Under the pieces are notes generated by a model that was not told the origin of the DNA, searched no databases, and saw nothing but the letters and a program-made list of their open reading frames with translations. A program made the translations under genes and the position numbers. DNA of 36,326 nucleotides, taken from the IMG/VR virus record IMGVR_UViG_3300021960_000231, positions 1 through 36,326 of that record; one strand, written 5' to 3'. Each line of letters begins with the position of its first letter. The first letter of the stretch is position 1. The stretch comes from a virus. Shown here piece after piece: positions 9,201-36,326 of this stretch.

Positions 9201-10454
9201 TTAATATCCTGCAACAGCATCCATAAATTCATATTCATCGTCTTCGTAGTCATATGCGTAGCTGATCTTAGCTAACTGATCAATGTATGCCAACGAATCT
9301 ATTAAATCATCGTGTACTAAGTGGTTAGGGAACTGGAATAACTGGTCTAAGAACTCTGTATTCCACTCACCTTCGTTTAAAGTTATCTGACCATGCTCAA
9401 ATCTGCCCTGTAAGGCCCATATGATGCGGTCAGTCTTCCGTTTATTACCATGAGTTAACTCTTCTACCCGAAAGAAGAACTGTTCTTGCTTCATTCTGTC
9501 TAGTAAGTAGGGATGTACAGCGTTCTTCAACGCTCCTTTCTCTACACCTACAGCAATAGGCTGGTAATCTCGTACAGCTTGGAAGATTTTGTCGGCAGTC
9601 TTCTTAACATCCCATCGACCATAGATAACATTATCAACCCACCACCCGTCTGGCCCTGCTTTGACAACAGATATGGACGTTGTATCCAATTTCTTTTGTT
9701 TAGACGTAGTGGCTTTCTCAATATCAGCAAAACCTGCGAGGTCAACAGAGATATAATACTCTCCCTCATCAGGTTCCTCCGTATCAAACTCAATCCATTC
9801 TTCACTGAAGATAGCACCCCCTGCTGCTTCAAAGGATGCCAGAAATTCCTGACGAAATGCAAAAGAAGACATGCTACCTTTCGCTGCTTCAATCTCTTCG
9901 GGGTCTAATAAATTATTATCGTAAGACGTAAAGTGCCAACTTTCAAAAGTAGGATCATCTCCTTGCCCATGGCGGTATAAATCATAGAAATGGTTACGAC
10001 CCATAGGAGTACCTATGAATATAGCACGACCTTTTTGGTCAGCCAGTGCTGGACGTAGTATCTGTTCCCATACTTCGGGCTTCATGTCAGCGTATTCATC
10101 CATAACAAGAAACTTCAAGCTAACACCACGCATAGTCTCTGGTCTGTCAGCACCCTTGAGTGCAATCGTAGTACCATTGACTAGCTTAATCTGTAAGTTG
10201 TTTATGTGGCTGCTCTTGATAACAGTGTGGCCTAACTCCATTAGAGTCTCCCACATGATGTCACGAGCCTGACCCTGAGTAGGGGCAACATAAAACACAT
10301 GTCCCTTAGTTGCCTGTAGGCCCTCTATGATCAAGGCCCACGCTGCCAACCTACTCTTGCCACAACGTCTTCCTGCTGCAACTACTTTGAATCGTACAGG
10401 ATCATTGAAGACCTCTTGCTGCCATTTAAGTAGTTCAACTTTAAGATCGGTCAT
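9201..10454 (-). CDS. terL: Terminase large subunit (packaging ATPase/nuclease)
   Basis: 417 aa. Walker A is AAGRRCGKS at residues 26-34, Walker B is FLVMDE at 115-120, and the coupling motif FIGTP is at 146-150. The C-terminal RNase H-like nuclease shows ISVDLAG (D238), VGVEKG (E305) and HDDLIDSLAY (D382/D383/D386). It drives ATP-powered DNA packaging and cuts concatemers. It follows the endolysin gene immediately. The family fits a headful or terminal-repeat packager; the sequence alone does not decide which. Confidence 0.96.
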   Translation of the reverse strand: MTDLKVELLKWQQEVFNDPVRFKVVAAGRRCGKSRLAAWALIIEGLQATKGHVFYVAPTQGQARDIMWETLMELGHTVIKSSHINNLQIKLVNGTTIALKGADRPETMRGVSLKFLVMDEYADMKPEVWEQILRPALADQKGRAIFIGTPMGRNHFYDLYRHGQGDDPTFESWHFTSYDNNLLDPEEIEAAKGSMSSFAFRQEFLASFEAAGGAIFSEEWIEFDTEEPDEGEYYISVDLAGFADIEKATTSKQKKLDTTSISVVKAGPDGWWVDNVIYGRWDVKKTADKIFQAVRDYQPIAVGVEKGALKNAVHPYLLDRMKQEQFFFRVEELTHGNKRKTDRIIWALQGRFEHGQITLNEGEWNTEFLDQLFQFPNHLVHDDLIDSLAYIDQLAKISYAYDYEDDEYEFMDAVAGY

Positions 10455-11414
10455 TTATGCCATGTTCTCATACCAACCACTTCCTACACGTAGCTTCTGA
10501 CCTGCCTGTAGAGCGCGTCCCATTGATCCACGGGTAATCTCTACTTCGGGATTTAATGCTTGTAACTCGTCAAGACTCATACCATTCTCATAGGCAATGT
10601 GACCAGCAAAACGAGTAGGACTAATTTCATCAAAGGATGCTGGTTCTTGTTCAGTCATTCCAAATAAATTACTTGCTGCATCTGATACAGTGTCATAAGC
10701 ACTATCGTATACACGACCTGCTTTATTACTAGCACGTTTAATAAATGTTTCTAATGGTTCAAAGACAGGCTCAGAATAAGGGGCTATGGCTTCTTTTAAA
10801 GCATTAGGGCGAGATGCAATACTTTCTTTAAATTGAGCTGCTCCCTGTCCTCGTCCTTCTACTTTTGATTCCCAATCTACTGGGCCAACAGCCCTTGTAT
10901 TTTCATAAGGATTAGTTAAATCTTTAGACCTATCTGACATGTAAGCAATGCCTACATCAGCAGCTATATCAGGATCTAATAGTAAATCAGGATTGTTAAC
11001 TAAATCTAAACCTAACATATCACCATAGCGTTTATAGTTATCTTTACCTGTTAGCTGTATGTAACCTCGTCCTCTATACTTATACCCTTCATCTTTTGCA
11101 TTACCTAGACGACCACCATAGACTCTATTGCCAATAGCTTCTGGGCCTAGTTTAGCTAATGCAATAGCCTCAGCTTCATCTTTAAAATACTTAGGGAACA
11201 CAGCGTACAGTCGTTTACCACTATAGTTCATGTTTTCGTTGACAGGCTTTATATTACTTTCAGCATCAAATTGAGATAGTATATTAGCTTGAGCAGTAGG
11301 ATCAACAATACCTTTGTCGATCATCTTAACAACAATGTTTTCCTGTTGTTCTGACAGTCCACTTTTATTAATAGCTTCAATAGATCCAGCTTTAATATGT
11401 TCACTCAACCTCAT
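10455..11414 (-). CDS. Endolysin: GH19 chitinase-like lysozyme with C-terminal LysM-like domain
   Basis: 319 aa from the ATG at 11414, which has a strong AAGGAGAG site. A longer open frame upstream overlaps the terminase gene and reads as its shadow. Residues about 20-165 match the glycoside hydrolase 19 fold: AQANILSQFDAES (E52), NENMNYS (E60), LYAVFPKYF, IGNRVYGGRLGN and YKYRGRGYIQLTGKDNY. The likely reaction is hydrolysis of the peptidoglycan glycan chain. The last 50 residues (NGMSLDELQALNPEV, LQAGQKLRVGSGW) look like a LysM/SPR cell-wall-binding unit. No signal peptide is seen, so export would need the holin, or the enzyme could be virion-borne. Its place between the two terminase genes is unusual. 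Confidence 0.88.
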   Translation of the reverse strand: MRLSEHIKAGSIEAINKSGLSEQQENIVVKMIDKGIVDPTAQANILSQFDAESNIKPVNENMNYSGKRLYAVFPKYFKDEAEAIALAKLGPEAIGNRVYGGRLGNAKDEGYKYRGRGYIQLTGKDNYKRYGDMLGLDLVNNPDLLLDPDIAADVGIAYMSDRSKDLTNPYENTRAVGPVDWESKVEGRGQGAAQFKESIASRPNALKEAIAPYSEPVFEPLETFIKRASNKAGRVYDSAYDTVSDAASNLFGMTEQEPASFDEISPTRFAGHIAYENGMSLDELQALNPEVEITRGSMGRALQAGQKLRVGSGWYENMA

Positions 11415-11802
11415 CGTACTCTCCTTCATAGGTATCATCATTGCCTGAGTTGCCAACGATTGTAGTGTCACCACCAACACCAGTGATAGTAATAGAGACT
11501 GCATTCCTACCTCCAGTATCATTCTTCTTATCAAAATAAGAGATAGGTAACACTCTATCCATACACATCTTTAGTGCTGCTGATTGAACAGGATGACCAT
11601 CTTCTAATGCTATTTCAATAACCTTAGATATAACCTTATCACCACTCGTAGCTAACAACCTAGCCTTGAGTTCATTGATTCTAGCAGCATCCCCTTTAGG
11701 TCTACCGATAGCATTTCTGTTCCCTTTCTTCTTGGCTGCTATGTCTGCTTTGCGAGGACGACCACGCTTCGCTTTAACAACAACCTTTGGATCAACAATC
11801 AT
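11401..11802 (-). CDS. terS: Terminase small subunit (putative)
   Basis: 133 aa, first gene of the leftward unit. The basic N-terminus has two AT-hook-like motifs (KRGRPRK at 12-18 and IGRPKG). A helical core follows (ARINELKARLLATSG, VISKVIEIALEDG, ALKMCMDRVLPISYF), a pattern I know from small terminases and related DNA-recognition proteins of podoviruses. The acidic tail (NDDTYEGEYDEVE) could contact the large subunit. It would recognise the packaging site. It overlaps the endolysin by 14 bp. The assignment rests on pattern and context. Confidence 0.72.
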   Translation of the reverse strand: MIVDPKVVVKAKRGRPRKADIAAKKKGNRNAIGRPKGDAARINELKARLLATSGDKVISKVIEIALEDGHPVQSAALKMCMDRVLPISYFDKKNDTGGRNAVSITITGVGGDTTIVGNSGNDDTYEGEYDEVE

Positions 11803-11969: not shown

Positions 11970-12183
11970 GAGTTATTTTAGTTATCTACTAAGGACTGCA
12001 TTGGCGGGACTCACATGCTTTACATGCCCTCCGCAGCCCCTCCTTTATTCACTACCCAGATCACATTACTTTATTCTTATTAATCATAGTCTTAGTGATA
12101 GTAATTAATTAGTCAGATTAGCCCTTTTTAGTATCTAAGCAGGTACCCCTACACACCAGCCTACGCAGCTACCCCCCCGTCCT

Positions 12184-12253
12184 TACATTAGACTACCCTA
12201 ATGTAGCAGTGACTAATGTAGCAATCTCTAATGTAGCAAAGTCTAATGTAGCA
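12184..12253. repeat. Phased iteron array CTAATGTAGCA
   Basis: Four exact copies of CTAATGTAGCA begin at 12198, 12213, 12228 and 12243, a strict 15-bp period. An inverted TACATTAG at 12184-12191 faces the first copy across 6 bp. A degenerate copy (CTATAGC) follows near 12261. Tight phasing in the control region suggests a binding array for an initiator, repressor or terminase. Confidence 0.85.
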
Positions 12254-12321
12254 TTGCCCACTATAGCTTGTGTGAATGTCTATGATGTACCCCATAGCAT
12301 AAAATAATGACTACCCTATAT

Positions 12322-12362
12322 GATAATGATTCTCATTAGTTAAGTGATAATAAGTCTCATTA
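12322..12362. promoter_or_regulatory. Two Fur-box-like repeats
   Basis: GATAATGATTCTCATTA (12322-12338) matches 15 of 19 positions of the classic Fur box when extended by two bases and contains AATGA-TTC-TCATT. A second copy, GATAATAAGTCTCATTA, lies at 12346-12362, offset by 24 bp. They may be operators for an unknown phage or host regulator; a Fur function is speculative. Confidence 0.4.
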
Positions 12363-12602
12363 ACCCTGTATTATAAGCATATTAGATAATACTAATATAA
12401 ATTGTAAGCTGCCTATAAAGCCATCTAAGCAATATCAAAGCAGGTCTATAGCTAGGTATTGTTTAAATTAAAACCTTGTCAGATCCACCCTATGACCTTA
12501 CAGGCTATAATTAGCATCTGCTAATATGCTCAATTATGGGCTAATATTGACCACTATTCACCAAACGAATACGCACTATATAAAACTCTTATACCAAATG
12601 AA

Positions 12603-12690: not shown

Positions 12691-13137
12691 ATGAATACAT
12701 TAACTATCCAACACGTTCGCGCTATCGGTAACTCACTAATGGCACAAGTAAAAGCACAAGACAAGACCAGTGACGCTAGGTTTGAACTAGCTAAGGCATT
12801 ACAGTCCGACGCTGTAGACCTAGAGAATAAAGAACAGGCTGGTATTATTAAAGCCATGATTGACAAGGCTTACCCTAAAGCTACCAAAGATGGTTGTCCT
12901 GAGCAATTGAAAAAAGCTAGTGCAGTTAGGCAAGTTTGTAGCACCCACAAGAAAGCCTTTAAAGATGGGGTGAGTGCGGTTGATCACGAGACCTATTCTC
13001 AATTCCGTAACGCGGTCTATGGAGACCAATCTAAGACTAAGGCTCAGACCATAATGTCATGGATTGATAGCGATAAAATTCCGTTTACCTTAGCAGAGTT
13101 GGAGGCGATTGTAGCTCAGTATAAGGCTATCAAGTAA
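12691..13137 (+). CDS. First early protein, unknown function
   Basis: 148 aa, mostly helical and basic (LKKASAVRQVCSTHKKAFKDG). No known domain is recognised. It begins MNTLTIQHVRAIGNS with an AAGGTA ribosome site and is the first gene after the rightward promoter, the slot where phages put host-takeover or regulatory proteins. The length and charge would allow DNA or RNA binding, but no motif proves this. Confidence 0.75.
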   Translation: MNTLTIQHVRAIGNSLMAQVKAQDKTSDARFELAKALQSDAVDLENKEQAGIIKAMIDKAYPKATKDGCPEQLKKASAVRQVCSTHKKAFKDGVSAVDHETYSQFRNAVYGDQSKTKAQTIMSWIDSDKIPFTLAELEAIVAQYKAIK

Positions 13138-14419: not shown

Positions 14420-15100
14420 ATGAGTAGTATAAAGTTTAGTGCAGCCAGTAAGATGCCATGCTTTTCATGGTCACTAGAAGCTATGATTACATGTGCTGGT
14501 GCTGTAGATATTGTCACTGGTGCTGTCGTTGCAGCTTGTGAGATATGCTATGCAAGAGGTGGCTTCTATCAGATGCCTAGTGTTAAGGCACTACGCCAAC
14601 ACAACAAGGAGGATTGGAAACGTCCTGAGTTTGTTGATGAGTTCATAGTCAAGCTAGATAACTCGCGTTACTTTCGATGGTTCGATAGCGGTGACTGTTA
14701 CACAACCAAGCTGGCGTGGAAGATGTATGCTATCATGAAAGCTACGCCTTGGTGTCAGCATTGGTTCCCAACTAGACAGTATAAGTTTGATAAATATAAG
14801 GTGGTGTTAGATGCAATGGCTTTACTACCCAATGTTGTTGTTAGGTTCAGCAGTGATAGTATTACAGGTGGACTTGTTGATGGGGCTACTACTTCCACTA
14901 TTGTCCCCTATGTAGAGACACCAGTAAGTTTCCTAGGAAACATTGAGGTCTGTCTAGCATACGAGAGACAAGGTAAGTGTGATACCTGTCGAGCGTGTTG
15001 GGATAAAGATGTAGAGTTGATTGTCTATCCTGCTCATGGACGTATGGCTAAGAAAGTTTATAATGAAAATCAATTAATAAAATTGAAGGAGGTAGCATGA
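14420..15100 (+). CDS. Phage GP88-like (gene product 88 family) protein
   Basis: 226 aa. The arrangement SAASKMPCFSWSLEA (C14), C25, then CEICYARGGFY (C40, C43), FRWFDSGDCYT and WFPTRQYKF matches the gene product 88 domain known from actinophages and other phages. A cysteine pair (CDTCRACW) lies near the C-terminus. The clustered cysteines suggest a metal or iron-sulphur site, but the biochemical role of the family is unknown to me. AAGAGG precedes the start. Palindrome copy 5 lies inside the gene and encodes VSFLGN. The stop overlaps the next ATG. Confidence 0.8.
   Translation: MSSIKFSAASKMPCFSWSLEAMITCAGAVDIVTGAVVAACEICYARGGFYQMPSVKALRQHNKEDWKRPEFVDEFIVKLDNSRYFRWFDSGDCYTTKLAWKMYAIMKATPWCQHWFPTRQYKFDKYKVVLDAMALLPNVVVRFSSDSITGGLVDGATTSTIVPYVETPVSFLGNIEVCLAYERQGKCDTCRACWDKDVELIVYPAHGRMAKKVYNENQLIKLKEVA
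14928..14941 (+). promoter_or_regulatory. Palindromic element GTTTCCTAGGAAAC, copy 5 (intragenic)
   Basis: Exact copy in frame within the GP88-like gene. Even the flank ATTGAGG resembles the ATTGGAG next to intergenic copies, so it looks like the same element and not a chance match. Confidence 0.85.
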
Positions 15101-35084: not shown

Positions 35085-36326
35085 TTAACGTGAGTTACTG
35101 TGTTTAAATGGGGTTTCTGCAAATGCTATGAAGATGTGAGTATTAGACCCACTGTTCATATAAACGTGTGAGCTTCTTAGCTTGAAACCATTTGATAGAA
35201 AATCAATGTTCCATGAAGTATCTGACTCTTCTGCGCCTGAGTTTTCTGCGGATAATTTAGCGTTCATCACGTTATAAGGGCTACGATCAGTGTCAAACAT
35301 AAACCATGACCCTACTTCTGTTGCTCTTTTTACAAGAACAAATTTGGGCTTGAAACCACAATGTACAAACGTACCATCAGTCGAGCCATTTCCAACAAAT
35401 GAACCTACACGAGAATACCCGTCTACGGAGTGGAAGCAGTAGGATATGTAGGTAGCATTTGCAGTGGCTACATTATCCCAACCATTAACTCTAAATGTAG
35501 ATGCGCCCACCGATGATATGTTATTCGTGTCTAAAGCATTCGTAAGGTTTAAATAAAGCTGTTTATTCGTTGTAGCTAAATTTGTAAAATGTGAAACCCA
35601 ATTTCCTGTTGAATCTCTTCTTTTGACCAGCACTAATTCTGGCGTTTGACTCAGGCCATGCCCGACTGTTTCATCAGAATCAAGAGCAGTGTAAGACAAA
35701 ATCGAGAATCCAGCACTAGGGTTAGCTGACACACTAGAAGTGATTGAGCCGTTGGTGTTGGAGACTGCTGTGCCGCCAGCTTTCCAGTTCCATGCAACGT
35801 ATGTGCCACCACTTCCGTTTATTTGAGCGTCCGTTCCTAATGTATATCCATCTGACGTAAATGTTTTTTGCTTATTAGCTTGAGTTGATTCTGCTGAAGT
35901 AGTATCACTTCTCAACTGTAGAGAATTGCCTCGCAAAGTGTCAAAGAATTGAGAAGGGCCAGTTCCATTTCTGCGTTTAAATATTCCTAAATCAGGAGTA
36001 AATCCAACGCCTGATAAGACTCTATTATCTGCACCAGTGCCACTGTAAATAACAGGATTAAAATGCTCACTAGGTATCACATCAACATCAGGCAAGTTCT
36101 GCGTACATAACGCTAGATAGCCCGTAGGAGGTGCGTAATAGAAGTCACCAATGCCGTTGGAATCAGCGTTGCCTTGTGGGGTTTTTGCCCCTGCGAAAGA
36201 TGAATCTTGCCCACAATTTAAAACACCAACATAGTTACCTACAGGCATAGTATACGGGGTAAATTCATATCCTGCGTTTAATTGAAATAAATAGTTTGAT
36301 GAAGATAAAGCGTTAGACCCGTCAAA
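35085..36326 (-). CDS. Giant tail fibre, C-terminal part (joins window start)
   Basis: 413 residues from the right edge to a stop at 35085; the frame is open through the edge and has an internal ATG at 36248. DFYYAPPTGYLALCTQNLPD, TGADNRVLSGVGFTPDLGIF, SNTNGSITSSVSANPSAGFS and TVGHGLSQTPELVLVKRRDS repeat the modules seen in the N-terminal part (1-2353). With the 126-bp end repeat collapsed, the two halves give one continuous frame of about 1147 codons. The repeated VGHGL...WFMFDT modules suggest a duplicated receptor-binding section. A true end of the fibre is reached at SNSR. Confidence 0.85.
   Translation of the reverse strand, partial: FDGSNALSSSNYLFQLNAGYEFTPYTMPVGNYVGVLNCGQDSSFAGAKTPQGNADSNGIGDFYYAPPTGYLALCTQNLPDVDVIPSEHFNPVIYSGTGADNRVLSGVGFTPDLGIFKRRNGTGPSQFFDTLRGNSLQLRSDTTSAESTQANKQKTFTSDGYTLGTDAQINGSGGTYVAWNWKAGGTAVSNTNGSITSSVSANPSAGFSILSYTALDSDETVGHGLSQTPELVLVKRRDSTGNWVSHFTNLATTNKQLYLNLTNALDTNNISSVGASTFRVNGWDNVATANATYISYCFHSVDGYSRVGSFVGNGSTDGTFVHCGFKPKFVLVKRATEVGSWFMFDTDRSPYNVMNAKLSAENSGAEESDTSWNIDFLSNGFKLRSSHVYMNSGSNTHIFIAFAETPFKHSNSR
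36201..36326. repeat. Terminal direct repeat, right copy (126 bp)
   Basis: Identical to 26-151. Together they support a circular or circularly permuted map of about 36,175 bp. Just outside the repeat, the encoded residues change from NT (left copy) to AK (right copy) after DSSFAG. Confidence 0.85.

Follow-up and report, generated by a model that had tools for sequence, protein, structure and literature searches.

A phased array in the gap between late and early genes

What is the function of a strictly phased array of short repeats that separates the late from the early genes of an uncultured marine virus of bacteria? We analysed this locus in an IMG/VR record (IMGVR_UViG_3300021960_000231), whose whole stretch of 36,326 nucleotides is referred to as the window. 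Because the start and the end of the record have 121 bases in common (31-151 = 36206-36326, with the first 30 bases differing), the window closes as a circle of ~36.2 kb. The late genes run leftward and include the large terminase gene terL and an adjoining putative terS, a name that rests on position, since PHROG and Pfam gave no match. The early and replication genes, comprising primase/helicase, DNA polymerase, SSB and exonuclease, run rightward. The array sits in the 888-base gap between the two sets, the divergent control region in which a sequence-only reading had placed it.

Four exact copies of the 11-base motif CTAATGTAGCA start at 12198, 12213, 12228 and 12243, reproducing the strict 15-bp steps described in that reading (12198-12253), and these are the only mismatch-free copies in the window. 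Tandem Repeats Finder (TRF) scored the array with a 15-bp period, and when the intergenic region was simulated 5000 times with a first-order Markov model, four or more identical 11-mers at a constant step never arose. The array is real, and chance does not explain it. The inverted leading copy, TACATTAG, is found at 12184-12191 as claimed, with 6 bp separating it from copy 1. Its relation to the other copies could be refined: the 9-mer CTAATGTAG is close to a palindrome (CTA-N3-TAG), which places the inverted copy at 12183-12191, exactly 15 bp ahead of copy 1, as unit 0 of the same register. With a degenerate unit 5 at 12258 (CCACTATAG), the array comprises six units in one register, each step corresponding to ~1.43 helical turns.

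In close relatives the array is found at the corresponding position; its absence there, which would have counted against the earlier reading, was not seen. They share the unit register, with strict 15-bp spacing of the CTAATRTAG units in nine phages; two of them (L008 and L009) have a direct copy of CTAATGTAG at unit 0, and unit 5 of L085 reads CTACTATAG. A coding pentapeptide repeat was rejected, as no open reading frame of at least 60 amino acids spans the array and the 11-mers are identical yet the 4-base spacers vary. A structured RNA or tRNA was likewise rejected after Rfam and tRNA searches without a match.

Arrays of CTAATRTAG with a 15-bp period in four further contigs (L094, L203, L204 and L205) were not used as evidence. 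Those of L204 and L205 look coding, whereas those of L094 and L203 are non-coding and maybe a coincidence among many period-15 arrays. L094 (IMGVR_UViG_3300044940_000245) is an unrelated contig ending in a CTAATGTAGCATAGG array within its first 130 bases, just upstream of an apparent terminase pair. L203, a 121-kb contig, carries a CTAATATAGGGAGCA array at 10100-10183 with DnaA-box-like sites nearby.

Table 1 Features of the array locus and neighbouring genes, in window coordinates.
Feature	Position	Strand	Remarks
Large terminase (terL)	9201..10454	-	phrog_2, E 9e-46
Putative small terminase (terS)	11401..11802	-	two AT-hook-like GRP motifs; adjoins terL; conserved in family
Left core TTTTTAGTATCTAAGCAGG^TACC	12125..12147	+	predicted cut 12143^12144; best-conserved segment of the element among 95 relatives
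Predicted direct terminal repeat / concatemer junction, 144 bp	12144..12287	.	predicted from two homologous cores (^TACC), contig ends and DTRs of cultured T7-like phages
C-box CCCCCCCGTCC	12172..12182	+	C-rich in relatives, near-constant 44-51 bp from left-repeat start
Unit 0, inverted leading copy TTACATTAG	12183..12197	-	in array register
Dyad 1, ATTAGACTACCCTAAT, units 0 + 1	12187..12202	.	ATTAG-N6-CTAAT
Units 1-4, CTAATGTAGCA-N4	12198..12257	+	strict 15-bp steps
Degenerate unit 5, CCACTATAG	12258..12272	+	in register; CTACTATAG in L085
Right core GTGTGAATGTCTATGATG^TACC	12270..12291	+	predicted cut 12287^12288; conserved right repeat
Dyad 2, ATTAGATAATACTAAT	12381..12396	.	one of three in the window; conserved island in relatives
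Dyad 3, ATTAGCATCTGCTAAT	12510..12525	.	129 bp from dyad 2
e148, first early gene, candidate array/dyad-binding protein	12691..13137	+	homologs only in CTAATRTAG-unit clade

The array fills the variable slot of a conserved element

Relatives were collected by a TerL search and a DNA-pattern search, giving some 250 loci. Among these we identified 95 distinct elements upstream of terS that follow one plan of left core, C-rich box, variable insert and right core. In the consensus, TTTTTTGTATCTGAGCAGG is directly followed by TACC, ~25 bp, the C-rich box and the insert, and then by GTGTGAGTATGCTAGNGGA running directly into TACCTATAG. The array of the window is the variable insert of this conserved terminase-family element.

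The insert itself comes in several types. DnaA boxes (at least two) were present in 46 of the 95 elements, CTAATRTAG units in nine and sigma54-like sites (at least two) in three, the remainder being other or degenerate. DnaA boxes reached a density of 8.2/kb in the inserts, compared with 0.043/kb in the rest of these loci, with zero matches in reversed-letter controls and a spacing of mostly 11 or 22 bp; the window's own intergenic region contains no such box (TTATNCACA). Mapped on the TerL tree, the DnaA label requires 16 switches, of which well supported branches make at least 12 unavoidable, and the insert type differs even among phages with ~97-100% identical TerS. In L164 the flanks are present with the insert almost absent, and therefore an array is not always needed.

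Within the predicted terminal repeat, some inserts (L020, L033, L054, L190 and L031) have sigma54-like -24/-12 sites arranged in tandem, up to several per insert; 45 of the 46 sites in the set share one orientation. Homologs of a GP88-family early protein (PF17338), encoded at 14420-15100 of the window, are found downstream of elements with several insert types. The only terminase-bearing MAG contigs found were assigned to three unrelated groups, and these assignments are probably binning errors.

The element resembles the genome ends of cultured T7-like phages

Searching cultured phages by blastn with the array region of the window returned no DNA relatives, and tblastn with TerS and e148 gave no match. 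Using a DnaA-type element as the blastn query, in contrast, led to the genome ends of cultured T7-like phages. The records of Shigella phage Ship_A7 (Berlinvirus) and Klebsiella phage ZK1 (Molineuxvirinae) contain exact direct terminal repeats (DTRs) of 177 bp and 292 bp, respectively, and the DnaA-box arrays of both phages fall inside them. The ZK1 repeat begins with ^TACCCCACATCC and the Ship_A7 repeat is followed by ^TACCCAC. These termini (^TACCC) resemble the two cores of the window, AAGCAGG^TACCCCTACACACC and GATG^TACCCCATAGC; the boundary sequences of the T7, Ship_A7 and ZK1 repeats are not all alike. As in the window, a short-repeat array lies between the terminase and the genome end of both phages, but their units are TTATCCACA DnaA boxes instead of CTAATGTAGCA at 15-bp steps, and in the replication and head genes their relationship to the window is only distant.

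A location between the terminase and early genes, as seen here and in the relatives with the same synteny, is that expected of a DTR, and the 121-base circular overlap is what a collapsed DTR would allow. Contig ends may point to the same place: of the 21 that fall within the element, eight are placed 0 to +5 bases from a predicted cut (binomial P ~1e-5 to 1e-4, for a hand-made post hoc list from which L254 was left out, its edge being no contig end). Four of them belong to the right core (L190, L192, L012 and L109), with L190 and L192 ending at the very base homologous to the right-core cut, whereas L244 and L249 start at the left core and L006 and L150 end there. The two TerS-side contigs that stop at the left core are not required by a simple DTR, and breaks arising during assembly where conserved sequence meets variable sequence could produce a similar cluster. 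Taken together, a position of the array inside the predicted direct terminal repeat is fairly well supported.

Short repeats are known from comparable positions. In T7-like Yersinia phages (fPS phages), the terminal repeats have been mapped and include short repeats as well as poly-C tracts (PMC5923468). T7 carries CCTAAAG repeats close to the ends of its genome. What the fPS phages and T7 have in common with the window, given its predicted ends, is terminal short repeats in tandem together with C tracts; their unit sequences and periods are different, and the T7 repeats lie mostly beside its 160-bp terminal repeat.

Dyads upstream of the first early gene and a candidate binder

The dyad ATTAG-N6-CTAAT occurs three times in the window and, in the loci of the relatives, never outside this region. 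Dyad 1 arises from unit 0 together with copy 1, and the other two precede the first early gene. The distance between dyads 2 and 3 is kept in the window, L004, L085, L086 and L016, while the intervening block differs.

The product of this first early gene, e148, appears to be the best candidate for a protein binding these sites, and a host protein is possible. Its presence follows the unit type, an association that counts as one evolutionary event because it is confined to a single clade. The predicted model is all-helical (pLDDT 80) and had no structural match in PDB and BFVD at E≤0.001. The best VIA-align hit was a TetR-type protein with a Z of 6.2, a value that helical bundles reach by chance. 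We detected no known domain and no recognisable DNA-binding or initiator fold in e148.

Other regulatory motifs were observed in the same stretch. Between the right core and e148, L004 and L085 have three NtrC-like sites (GCAC-N7-GTGC, e.g. GCACTATTATGGTGC) and, ahead of e148, two sigma54-like promoters (TTGGCACGATTCTTGC, TTGGCATGGCTATTGC). The density of NtrC-like sites is 0.127/kb in the element regions versus 0.0013/kb elsewhere, and these sites may connect the early genes with nitrogen regulation by the host. Two Fur-box-like sequences 24 bp apart (GATAATGATTCTCATTAGT, GATAATAAGTCTCATTAAC), of a kind whose background match rate is not low, are located at 12322-12364 of the window and recur in L004 and L085.

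Discussion

With moderate confidence, we interpret the array as clustered protein-binding sites that lie in the direct terminal repeat of a linear, T7-like phage and serve a lineage-specific protein in place of DnaA. According to this model, the terminase would cut near G^TACC in both cores, leaving the insert at both genome ends. The lineage-specific protein would bind the 15-bp CTAATRTAG units in DnaA's place, and the same protein would also bind the ATTAG-N6-CTAAT dyads that precede the first early gene. In the weakest part of the model, the complex at the concatemer junction might help to start replication or to duplicate the terminal repeat, and might couple this process to early-gene expression.

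The sequence-only reading had offered a replication origin, a repressor array and a terminase recognition site, and it is partly supported. An iteron-type origin without a terminal repeat was our own first idea. In such an origin, an initiator would bind direct repeats as well as inverted repeats before its own gene, like RepE of plasmid F, and AT-rich DNA nearby would melt. DnaA boxes fill the same slot in the relatives, an AT-rich stretch lies left of the left core, the C-box is GC-rich, and direct repeats plus dyads sharing their half-site stand before the first early gene, as for RepE (PMC13028717). The origins of plasmid F and of lambda, bound by RepE and O, likewise combine direct and inverted repeats with a common half-site in front of an early gene (PMC13028717, PMC5043065). 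However, the cultured phages hold the equivalent array in their terminal repeat, and inspection of these DTRs led us to demote the idea. In addition, the 15-bp step is out of helical phase, whereas most plasmid iterons are in phase (PMC5043065), a difference already pointed out in the earlier reading, and the locus has no recognisable Rep protein, e148 showing no recognisable initiator fold. The GC-skew check suggested for an origin is uninformative here, because the skew tracks the orientation of the genes and turns near 12.5 and 23.7 kb, where that orientation is reversed. We regard an origin in the first place, rather than a DTR, as unlikely; the two readings are not exclusive.

A role in transcription alone, with a phage or host regulator switching divergent early and late promoters from an operator array and no part in replication or packaging, agrees with the divergent intergenic position, with the half-site-sharing dyads upstream of the first early gene and with the sigma54-like, NtrC-like and Fur-like sites in or near the inserts of relatives. 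Against it stands the placement of the array between two terminal cores with units reaching the right core, in a slot that DnaA boxes occupy in about half of the relatives, and we consider it distinctly improbable. For the terminase recognition site, a pac or cos array bound sequence-specifically by the small terminase, the location looks right, as the array adjoins terS and apparently lies inside a DTR or concatemer junction; the pac sites of SPP1 and SF6 also have direct repeats beside the small terminase gene, and SPP1 pac carries sets of them (PMC4737164). Those belong to a headful system; in the present family the units are exchanged although TerS barely changes, so that array and TerS do not covary. 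This argument is tempered by the finding that the SPP1 and SF6 small terminases are interchangeable although SF6 lacks the SPP1 boxA repeats, and hence repeats can turn over at a pac site. Judged from these sequence comparisons, the array is unlikely to be the site that the small terminase itself recognises, and we give a pac or cos function very little credence.

Returning to the protein-binding array within the terminal repeat, an exchange of DnaA boxes for other units next to nearly constant cores and TerS points to an initiator-type protein at the genome ends. The slot appears to be an interchangeable protein-docking platform at these ends. To our knowledge, the role of short repeats at T7-like genome ends and the mechanism of terminal-repeat duplication during packaging are unsettled. 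This duplication has been described as crucial in T3 and T7 (PMC5923468). In the open-licence literature, we found no description of DnaA-box arrays in T7-like terminal repeats. The idea of an initiator at the ends is open to direct testing, for which cultured phages of Berlinvirus and Molineuxvirinae with DnaA-box arrays are the first choice.

For a widespread family of uncultured T7-like marine phages, we tentatively put forward a broader proposal, possible though well short of probable: their direct terminal repeats may be modular platforms, in which arrays for DnaA, of sigma54 type or for a phage protein are swapped between fixed terminase cores. Replication start or terminal-repeat duplication would then be tied to an initiator-type protein, which in the phage studied here would also control the early promoter via the dyads.
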